64,000 bases of DNA, from contig JAUMVO010000001.1 in the NCBI GenBank assembly GCA_030530095.1, forward strand, positions 124,001-188,000. The letters are read 5' to 3'. The position numbers and the translations under genes are program-made. Position 1 is the first letter of the stretch. Each line of letters begins with the position of its first letter. Positions 17,587 through 19,474 of this stretch are shown in pieces. Under the pieces are notes generated by a model. It saw only the letters and a list, made by a program, of their open reading frames with translations. It was not told where the DNA came from and searched no databases. The stretch comes from Clostridiaceae bacterium. Lineage in GTDB: Bacteria > Bacillota > Clostridia > Oscillospirales > Acutalibacteraceae.

Positions 17587-17826
17587 TTATGCAACGTAAA
17601 GAGAATCGGCGTTTGCCTTTGCCGCCTGCTTTCCGCCGTTTACGAGTTTGAACTCACGGTTTTTACGCATTTCGGCAAGTCTCTTATTCTTTTTGTAAAG
17701 GCGATACCTGATAACGATAGCCTTCTTAAGCAGCTGCTCAAATTCGATCATCTGCTTTTCGTGAGCAAAACCGTATATCAGTAATACTACAAGTGCGAAC
17801 TCAACTAAAGTCTTTAACATAATCAT
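17587..17826 (-). CDS. 79-residue single-pass membrane protein, SOS-type promoter
   Basis: I do not recognise the family. Residues 4-21 (LKTLVEFALVVLLIYGFA) form one membrane helix near the N-terminus, followed by a strongly basic amphipathic stretch (KKAIVIRYRLYKKNKRLAEMRKNR) and a tail ending NADSLYVA. ATG at 17826 follows GGAGGAAAATAAA; a second ATG lies at 17820. The longer upstream start at 17868 falls inside a LexA-type box and is rejected. Its promoter is flanked by LexA-like boxes, and a second promoter further up overlaps paired NrdR-like boxes. Size, topology and control resemble SOS-induced division inhibitors such as YneA, SidA or SosA, but no sequence similarity is claimed. The C-terminal LYVA could act as a Clp degron (speculative). 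Confidence 0.7.
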   Translation of the reverse strand: MIMLKTLVEFALVVLLIYGFAHEKQMIEFEQLLKKAIVIRYRLYKKNKRLAEMRKNREFKLVNGGKQAAKANADSLYVA

Positions 17827-17862
17827 TTTATTTTCCTCCAATCGGTAACGTTCGGTGTTTGT

Positions 17863-17874
17863 GAACATTTGTTC
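17863..17874. promoter_or_regulatory. LexA-type box (GAAC-N4-GTTC)
   Basis: GAACATTTGTTC matches the Gram-positive LexA/DinR consensus exactly. On the minus strand it lies about 20 bases downstream of the -10 at 17897-17892, in the leader of the small membrane protein gene. Confidence 0.7.
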
Positions 17875-17891
17875 TTGTTGATTACAGCCTC

Positions 17892-17919
17892 ATTATAGCA
17901 GGTATTTCAGATTTGTCAA
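17892..17919 (-). promoter_or_regulatory. Promoter P1 of the small membrane protein gene
   Basis: On the minus strand, TTGACA (17919-17914), 16 bases, TATAAT (17897-17892): two perfect hexamers. A second LexA-like site, GAACATTTGTAT on the minus strand (17930-17919, one mismatch in the half-site), abuts the -35. Confidence 0.85.
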
Positions 17920-18029
17920 TACAAATGTTCGAAAAAATTCCGAGATAAGTCCAAGTATGTGGACTTTACTCACAAAAATACAAAACAAATGTTTTTCTGC
18001 AAATTATTCTGATTTTCCTGTTCATCTGC

Positions 18030-18058
18030 ATATTAACACAATATATTGTGGTTGTCAA
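18030..18058 (-). promoter_or_regulatory. Promoter P2 toward the small membrane protein gene
   Basis: On the minus strand, TTGACA (18058-18053), 17 bases, TAATAT (18035-18030). NrdR box 1 occupies the spacer and box 2 lies just upstream. A weaker plus-strand promoter toward obg (TTGTCA 18052-18057, 17 bases, TTATAG) overlaps the same bases. Confidence 0.7.
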
Positions 18059-18083
18059 TATATTTACACACAATTTATAGTGA
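18036..18083. promoter_or_regulatory. Tandem NrdR-type boxes
   Basis: ACACAATATATTGTGG (18036-18051) and ACACAATTTATAGTGA (18068-18083) match the NrdR consensus acaCwAtATaTwGtgt at 15 and 14 of 16 positions. They are 32 bp apart start to start, the spacing known for NrdR box pairs. Box 1 exactly fills the spacer of a minus-strand promoter. No ribonucleotide reductase gene is nearby. The 376 bases between the small membrane protein gene and obg hold these boxes, the LexA boxes, the promoters and nothing coding that I can see. Confidence 0.7.
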
Positions 18084-18202: not shown

Positions 18203-19474
18203 ATGTTTGTTGATAAGGCGAAAATTTTAATAAAAGCAGGTAACGGCGGCGACGGTGCAGTTGCGTTTCACCGTGAGAAATACGTTGCGGCGGGCGGTCC
18301 CGACGGCGGCGACGGCGGACGCGGCGGAAACATTGTCTTTCAGGTTGACGACAATATCTCAACCCTTGCCGATTTCCGCTATAAGCGCAAGTACAAGGCG
18401 CAAAACGGTGAGAACGGCAGAGGCTCTCACTGTAACGGCAAGAAGGCGCCCGACCTTGTTATCAGGGTTCCGAGAGGTACTGTAATACGCGAGGTTGAGA
18501 GCGGCGTCGTTATGGCCGATATGTCTTCGGACGAGCCGTTTATTGCTGCCAAGGGCGGCAAGGGCGGCTGGGGCAACTGCCACTTTGCGACGAGCACGCG
18601 TCAGACTCCGCGCTTTGCGAAATCAGGCGCACCCGGCGAGGAGTGGGAGGTCACTCTTGAATTGAAGCTTATAGCCGATGTCGGACTTTTGGGCTTCCCA
18701 AATGTCGGTAAGTCTTCGCTTCTCTCCGTTGTCAGCGAGGCGAAGCCTATAATAGGCGACTACCACTTTACTACCATAATTCCCGTTCTCGGCGTTGTTT
18801 CAATGGGCCCCGAAAACAGCTTTGTAATGGCTGACATTCCCGGTCTTATCGAGGGCGCGGCAGAGGGTATAGGTCTGGGCCACGAATTCCTGCGTCACGT
18901 CGAGCGTTGCCGTATGCTCGTTCATATAGTTGACGTTGCGGGCAGCGAGGGCAGGGATCCCATAGATGACTTTGAAAAGATTAATTCCGAGCTTGAACGA
19001 TTCAATCCCGACCTGGCAAAATGTCCTCAGATTGTCGCGGGCAACAAAATTGACCTCGCGACCGATGAACAGCTGAAAACCTTCCGCGATTACATAACCG
19101 GTAAGGGCTATGAGTATTACGAAATATGCGCTCCGATAAAGCACAACACTAAGGAGCTTATAAACGCGGTGGCGGCAAAGCTTGCCGAGCTTCCGCCCGT
19201 AAAGCGTTACGAAGCCGAGGAAATACCGCAGGAAATCCTGCTGCAGAAAAAGAATAACGGCTTCAGGGTTACGGTTGAGGACGGCGTATATATTGTCGAG
19301 GCTGAATGGCTTAACAAGATTCTTATGAAGACCGATCCCGACGACTACGAGTCGCTTCAGTATTTCCAGAACGTCCTGCAGTCCACGGGCATCATTGACG
19401 AGCTTATAAAGCAGGGCATTCACGAGGGCGATACAGTGTCAATTTATGACCTTGAATTCGACTATATTCCGTAA
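18203..19474 (+). CDS. obg: Obg/CgtA GTPase
   Basis: A 423-residue ribosome-assembly and stress GTPase. The glycine-rich Obg fold spans residues 1-158 (KAGNGGDGAVAFHREKYV, GGPDGGDGGRGGN). The G domain follows with G1 GFPNVGKSS, G3 DIPGLIEGA and G4 NKID. A C-terminal OCT domain (about 345-423) is present, as in Firmicutes Obg. The ATG at 18203 opens the conserved MFVDKAKI and follows AAAGGAA; the upstream ATG would add an unsupported leader. The upstream region has LexA-like and NrdR-like sites. A palindromic repeat begins 5 bases after its stop codon. Confidence 0.95.
   Translation: MFVDKAKILIKAGNGGDGAVAFHREKYVAAGGPDGGDGGRGGNIVFQVDDNISTLADFRYKRKYKAQNGENGRGSHCNGKKAPDLVIRVPRGTVIREVESGVVMADMSSDEPFIAAKGGKGGWGNCHFATSTRQTPRFAKSGAPGEEWEVTLELKLIADVGLLGFPNVGKSSLLSVVSEAKPIIGDYHFTTIIPVLGVVSMGPENSFVMADIPGLIEGAAEGIGLGHEFLRHVERCRMLVHIVDVAGSEGRDPIDDFEKINSELERFNPDLAKCPQIVAGNKIDLATDEQLKTFRDYITGKGYEYYEICAPIKHNTKELINAVAAKLAELPPVKRYEAEEIPQEILLQKKNNGFRVTVEDGVYIVEAEWLNKILMKTDPDDYESLQYFQNVLQSTGIIDELIKQGIHEGDTVSIYDLEFDYIP

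Follow-up and report, generated by a model that had tools for sequence, protein, structure and literature searches.

A 79-residue, single-helix membrane protein encoded in the 64-kb window (that is, the whole stretch of DNA analysed here) is preceded by two promoters, one carrying LexA-like operators (P1) and the other NrdR boxes (P2). We propose that it is an unstable (short-lived), SOS-induced membrane checkpoint protein that probably arrests division, a reading to which we assign a probability of about 0.5. The first-pass annotation had described the gene as wired to both LexA and NrdR and as a candidate SOS division inhibitor. Comparison of 30 orthologous loci bears out the dual wiring (LexA in 30/30, NrdR in 24/30), whereas the role as a division inhibitor is a reasoned guess, suggested by the small size of the protein, its membrane anchor, its SOS-type control and an end that resembles a degron. 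Beyond that annotation, the comparison adds a third conserved palindrome, a variable tail with a conserved Val-Ala end, a charge pattern indicative of a cytoplasmic C-terminus, shorter homologues in phages, and a genome in which the only ribonucleotide reductase (RNR) found is of class III.

The gene and its conservation

The gene lies on the minus strand, divergent from obgE:

17587..17826, minus strand: coding sequence of the 79-aa one-helix membrane protein, C-terminus ...SLYVA
17835..17839, minus strand: Shine-Dalgarno sequence GGAGG for the 79-aa start (17826)
18203..19474, plus strand: obgE, divergent neighbour of the small gene

A re-scan of the window placed the 79-residue reading frame, the promoters and the boxes where the first-pass annotation had put them, bar the mismatch count of one box (below). 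A longer product of 93 aa, starting at 17868, was discarded because that start falls inside a LexA box and has a poorer ribosome site than the 79-aa start. The source genome, that of an anaerobic member of the Clostridia, is 1.82 Mb in 48 contigs and 95.76% complete, and the nearest named-record relative is the MAG Clostridiaceae bacterium isolate Tb.RUG.426 (L120), with 97% protein identity. A protein search of 59 genomes recovered the small gene in all 36 genomes of the genus (its own plus 35) and gave weak matches in 2/23 genomes outside it (E 0.013 and 0.085). All counts out of 30 given here refer to an orthologue set of 30 loci fetched from genus genomes; six genus genomes (G004, G005, G011, G021, G026 and G033) have no locus in this set, and the G033 locus (L155), examined separately, has the boxes. 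A second set comprised 34 named-record loci and partly overlaps the first. The divergent neighbour is obg in 29/30 loci, the thirtieth lying near a contig end, and it is more than 1.1 kb from the small gene in two (L032 and L033). Ka was smaller than Ks in 12/12 orthologue pairs compared, with Ks saturated in one pair and only three changes in another.

The protein had initially been assigned to no known family, and this stands: searches of Pfam, NCBIfam, PHROGs and PDB sequences gave no match above cut-off, only weak and inconsistent ones. The PHROGs family phrog_12471 was considered and rejected, as it matched only 2/30 members (best E 0.0057) and none of seven further phage or relative proteins scanned.

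LexA boxes at promoter P1

The promoter nearer to the gene, P1, is accompanied by two operators:

17892..17919, minus strand: promoter P1, TTGACA-16-TATAAT (-35 at 17914-17919; -10 at 17892-17897)
17863..17874, unstranded: LexA box GAACAAATGTTC, exact GAACN4GTTC, 17 nt downstream of the P1 -10
17919..17930, unstranded: second LexA-like operator GAACATTTGTAT, two mismatches to GAACN4GTTC, touching the P1 -35

The exact box that had been reported beside P1 is indeed present and is the only exact GAACN4GTTC in the window; the genome has 15, mainly within genes. The second box is also real and conserved, but it carries two mismatches and not one, as had been annotated. GAACN4GTTC is the LexA box of B. 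subtilis, and the patterns used to look for boxes in C. difficile were GAACN4GTTT, its GTTC counterpart and variants (PMC4234289).

Both P1, in the form TTGAC[AT]-16-TATAAT, and the core of the -35 operator, CGAACATTTGT, were found in 30/30 orthologous loci. The downstream box, always 12-18 nt past the P1 -10, is exact in 26/30 loci and within one mismatch in all 30 (L007, L012, L019 and L020 being the one-mismatch cases). When the 300 nt preceding the gene were dinucleotide-shuffled 40 times for every one of the 30 loci, 0.03 loci with an exact box were expected (vs. 26 observed) and 2.2 with at most one mismatch (vs. 30); the loci are related and the counts hence not independent, so that conservation of position is the stronger evidence. 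The named-record set agrees, with the -35 operator in 33 of 34 loci (pattern slightly relaxed) and an exact LexA box in 28; allowing one mismatch, 33 loci have a box and only the prophage-like L141 does not.

A search of the genome for lexA and nrdR, which the first-pass annotation had proposed as a check, found both genes. The box at the small gene, GAACAAATGTTC, also precedes a Y-family polymerase gene of this genome (L037; Pfam IMS), and exact GAACAWWTGTTC boxes precede Y-family polymerase genes of relatives L103, L113 and L107 (in an operon in L107; Pfam IMS) as well as uvrB of relative L102 (Pfam identity). The lexA promoter of this genome has two one-mismatch boxes, one of them overlapping a TTGACA much like P1. 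Across 39 genus genomes, GAACAWWTGTTC occurs 166 times (2-7 per genome) vs. 58 times for the reversed control pattern. The small gene thus has, at its promoter, an operator common to core SOS genes of the clade, and on these comparisons we regard its control by LexA as very probable.

LexA boxes were also seen before other small genes of the clade, namely in L115 (1540), where the product matches sigma-70 region 4, in L111 (1536), which looks like the L115 case, and before a second small SOS-type gene of about 70 codons (MTL.EL...) in L100, L171 and L177 and, by eye, in L110 and L118.

A third conserved palindrome

One further element is conserved before P1:

17947..17966, unstranded: palindrome AAGTCC-N8-GGACTT, third conserved element

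It stands 26-28 bp before the P1 -35 in 30/30 loci, with 0-3 mismatches of 12. Against shuffles, 22 loci have it with at most one mismatch (0.0 expected) and 30 with at most three (1.45 expected). Allowing three mismatches, it also lies within 110 nt of 17/47 other GAACAWWTGTTC sites, a count that leaves out the small-gene relatives L166, L157 and L158 (20/50 with them) and in which two boxes (L103) have one palindrome in common and the sites include orthologues and are thus not independent. Control windows contained it in 0/97 cases for the other GAACAWWTGTTC sites (L166, L157 and L158 still counted in) and in 6/56 cases beside the small gene. Exact copies number 33, in 18/39 genus genomes (control pattern, 17); among the exact-palindrome loci fetched (14 of 18), a LexA-like box with at most one mismatch lies within about 170 nt in eight and is absent in six. 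These counts indicate that the palindrome is linked to SOS promoters, though not confined to them, and it may represent a further SOS-linked operator.

Exact or near copies accompany LexA boxes at several SOS promoters of the clade (L100, L103, L107, L171, L177 and L119). The copies in L100, L171 and L177 belong to the MTL.EL... gene of about 70 codons, one member of which was tested and had no Pfam match; in L119 (L034; G000:C4:19560 of this genome), a LexA box and a one-mismatch palindrome occur together, and a 56-codon ORF follows the box at a distance of about 150 nt.

Protein layout and the Val-Ala end

The protein consists of one hydrophobic N-terminal helix with a conserved acidic residue, followed by E..I.FE and a long basic helix; its conserved core reads E..LLIYGF..E..I.FE. 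The structure model contains two helices only (mean pLDDT 73.8, pTM 0.38), the one that follows the membrane segment spanning 34 residues in the model. Orthologues have 0-1 positive residues before the membrane helix and 11-21 after it, a charge pattern from which the C-terminus is predicted to be cytoplasmic.

The last two residues are Val-Ala in 29/30 orthologues and Ala-Ala in one, that is, the final Ala is found in 30/30, and Val-Ala also ends 32/34 proteins of the named-record set. The tail before this end differs in length and sequence among orthologues, as if selection acted on the last residues themselves. Since the turnover of SosA is controlled through its C-terminus, degradation is most likely the reason for this conservation, making the end a candidate degron. 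The possibility that it copies the tmRNA tag found no support, as the tag of this genome ends in RAA and not VA. The N-terminal fragment of this genome's LexA, with cleavage at Ala-Gly, would end in TVTA, a resemblance to Val-Ala that is no proof. Given the RAA tag and the ends of homologues outside the genus (HVA in L156, YIA in L157 and ENI in L158), the degron idea depends on conservation within the genus.

Several of these features would also suit a TisB- or DinQ-like membrane toxin induced by the SOS response, which would depolarise the membrane and induce dormancy and would not act on the divisome: the protein is small, basic, single-helix and SOS controlled, and SOS-controlled single-helix peptides do exist (DinQ, PMC3567139; TisB, PMC11575346). 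We consider a toxin unlikely in view of the length of about 80 residues, the 34-residue helix modelled past the membrane segment, the conserved end, and the presence of the protein in 35/35 same-genus relatives searched. TisB and DinQ are much shorter and have no long soluble helix.

Homologues outside the genus and in phages

A profile search across the order (295 genomes) matched eight genomes. Three belong to the genus, three to other genera of the family (L156, L157 and L158), and the matches in the remaining two were weak (L159 and L160). Two additional short loci, L161 and L162, come from one of the L156-L158 genomes. The LexA box is exact in L157 and L158 and has one mismatch in L156, and the -35 operator is also found in L156 and L157. 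The 1.5 kb upstream of these three loci contained no obg motif, so that, in the closer relatives, LexA control appears to travel with the small gene and not with obg. No exact LexA box was found within 700 nt in L159-L162.

Virus contigs carry five distinct homologue loci (L181-L185; L186 and L188 repeat the L181 contig and L187 that of L183), which encode about 44-70 residues and keep the core. Neither a Val-Ala end nor a nearby exact LexA box was found in these five, and a tblastn search of one phage copy against named phages gave no match. The prophage-like L141 and the short loci L161 and L162 are likewise shorter homologues without a Val-Ala end or an exact LexA box nearby. The phage-borne short version points to the functional core of the protein.

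The small protein could be related to an accessory protein of temperate phages and be kept by the host, its main role being phage related (exclusion or lysogeny control) and its host SOS control a later acquisition, as the shorter homologues on five virus contigs and in L141 would allow, and as would the position of the homologue after Cro/CI-type and HTH_17 genes in L184, L182 and L141, the three of these loci whose surroundings were compared with Pfam. This reading seems quite unlikely to us: the gene is chromosomal, sits beside obg in 29/30 loci and occurs in every same-genus genome searched, and the phage copies have neither an exact LexA box nearby nor the Val-Ala end. A host checkpoint protein remains the reading that we prefer.

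NrdR boxes at promoter P2

The promoter farther from the gene carries two NrdR boxes:

18030..18058, minus strand: promoter P2, TTGACA-17-TAATAT (-35 at 18053-18058; -10 at 18030-18035)
18036..18051, unstranded: NrdR box 1 CCACAATATATTGTGT, filling the P2 spacer
18068..18083, unstranded: NrdR box 2 TCACTATAAATTGTGT, with a 16-bp gap to box 1

An NrdR-like box in the P2 spacer and another 32 bp upstream (start to start) had been noticed at first sight, and a scan of the window confirms both; they are its only sites within one mismatch of CACWATATATWGTG. The genome has 16 such sites, three perfect and 13 with one mismatch (box 2 among the latter), and 40 places match the 14-mer with at most two mismatches (control pattern, 19). 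The perfect 14-mers lie upstream of nrdD, at the small gene, and on contig C21; the C21 site (L049, G000:C21:11366) is close to a contig end and precedes a small unassigned gene.

A box with at most one mismatch occupies the same place in the P2 spacer in 24/30 loci (0.0 expected from shuffles), and in 23 of these 24 the P2 -35 is TTGAC[AT] at a fixed distance, L012 having TTGCCA. Conservation of the boxes in related genomes, the comparison suggested at the outset, thus holds for LexA in all 30 loci and for NrdR in part: the NrdR box is missing in six loci (L011, L015, L027, L028, L032 and L033), all from genomes that keep nrdR, in 13/34 named-record loci and in L156-L158. The NrdR arm therefore appears dispensable. 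The nrdR gene itself is present in 38/39 genus genomes, the exception being a genome that is 68% complete.

The nrdD promoter of this genome, TTGACA-ACACAATATATAGGTGT-TATTAT, has the same layout as P2, although its spacer box differs from the 14-mer at two positions. Some 160 bp upstream of that box there is a perfect one, and the stretch between the two contains a pair of two-mismatch boxes 32 bp apart. When offsets of box 2 were scanned over the 24 box-bearing loci, the lowest mean mismatch was at 32 bp (7.71 of 16), followed by 8.17 at 34 bp, with a mean over offsets of 10.27 (s.d. 0.77); the signal at 32 bp comes mainly from a conserved right half-site. Box 2 is within five mismatches of 16 at 30-33 bp in 10/24 loci, vs. 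0-5 loci for other groups of offsets. NrdR proteins bind boxes 14-17 or 24-27 bp apart (PMC12051234), and the Streptomyces NrdR needs dATP plus ATP or ADP (PMC9110341). The window thus has two boxes over a promoter with a gap (16 bp) inside the shorter of these ranges, in a genome that encodes NrdR, and judging from this arrangement and the conservation of box 1, NrdR control at P2 is likely in the species that have the box.

The boxes lie between two divergent genes and nearer to obgE, which they might control as well, and it could be argued that they serve obgE alone, leaving the small gene under LexA only. We find this distinctly improbable, as box 1 fills the spacer of a consensus promoter directed towards the small gene, in the layout of the nrdD promoter, and the -35 of that promoter is kept as TTGAC[AT] in all box-bearing loci but L012. 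Even less credible is that the protein tunes dNTP supply or replication directly (e.g., as a membrane anchor for ribonucleotide reductase or a replication protein), for which NrdR boxes common to the small gene and nrdD and the SOS control would speak, since the NrdR arm is missing in 6/30 loci and the three non-genus relatives, all of which keep the LexA arm.

NrdD is encoded in this genome, and no class I or II RNR large subunit was matched in it (95.76% complete), while 11/14 control genomes gave a match. Hydroxyurea acts on class I RNR, and air exposure destroys the class III radical. With only a class III enzyme found, hydroxyurea would be unsuitable as a trigger of the NrdR arm and air exposure fitting.

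A model for the small protein

SOS checkpoints sense DNA damage. According to the checkpoint reading that we favor, LexA would repress P1 via the operator that touches the -35 and a second operator shortly after the transcription start, and NrdR would repress P2 via two boxes about three helix turns apart. Because P2 is upstream of P1, its transcript has to cross both LexA boxes, and LexA may thus restrict P2 as well, with the downstream operator possibly blocking read-through. DNA damage (by LexA cleavage) or falling dATP (by NrdR release) would then increase synthesis of the small protein. Judged by the sequence, the two signals could combine as OR or as AND. The protein would insert by its one N-terminal helix, with the basic helix on the cytoplasmic side, and its conserved core may contact a membrane partner, most likely the division machinery, and hold division back. 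The Val-Ala end would mark it for rapid, ClpXP-like degradation, so that division could resume after repair.

A broader version of this model, in which a new candidate checkpoint family facing the cytoplasm responds both to DNA breakage, sensed by LexA, and to a lack of DNA precursors, sensed by NrdR, would add three elements. Air exposure might empty the dNTP pools and trip the same brake, the only reductase found in the genome being the oxygen-sensitive class III enzyme; a further regulator might bind the AAGTCC-N8-GGACTT palindrome that marks several SOS promoters of the clade; and the shorter version carried by temperate phages, lacking the Val-Ala end, might persist longer and keep the host cell undivided. 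All of these together we regard as doubtful.

If true, a gene under both LexA and NrdR would mean that control of division or growth is tied to precursor supply as well as damage, and the small protein would be a candidate SOS brake for little-studied Clostridia.

Comparison with known systems

None of the libraries searched yielded a match above cut-off to the sequence family, and the literature matches listed, outside of which most subscription papers lie, include no small membrane protein controlled by LexA together with NrdR. In kind, the protein appears to belong with the known SOS-controlled small membrane proteins.

The likeness to SOS division inhibitors noted by the first-pass annotation holds for size, the single membrane helix and the SOS operator, as in the SosA/YneA/SidA kind, but not for topology, predicted here from charge to be opposite to that of SosA. 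SosA of Staphylococcus is similar in having 77 residues, one N-terminal helix, SOS control and a C-terminus needed for turnover (PMC6851548). Likened here by its description, it differs in its extracellular C-terminus, which CtpA is proposed to cleave, whereas our protein would have its C-terminus inside and so lack the extracellular C-terminal part of the SosA/YneA kind; NrdR control, for which boxes are present at the small gene, does not appear for SosA in the portions of PMC6851548 used here. YneA of Bacillus is also SOS induced, single-helix and cleared by proteases, as we propose for the small protein, and binds FtsW through its helix (PMC13396833, PMC6051672). Its topology (PMC13396833) is unlike that of the small protein with its predicted cytoplasmic C-terminus. 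YneA also has an extracellular LysM domain; across the 30 members, Pfam matches at E<=0.1 covered five families, and LysM, as in the YneA/ChiZ kind, was not one of them. DinQ (PMC3567139) and TisB (PMC11575346) are SOS-controlled small membrane peptides, as the small protein would be.

NrdR is known for its control of ribonucleotide reductase genes and of topA in Pseudomonas (PMC4409342), the latter a single-box case questioned in PMC12051234. The closest parallel to P2 is found in the NrdR-controlled promoters of nrd operons, where two boxes about 32 bp apart lie over the promoter (PMC12051234, PMC9110341). Unlike these operons, the small gene does not encode a ribonucleotide reductase and its upstream box is often a half-site in orthologues, while the paired arrangement over the promoter is the same.
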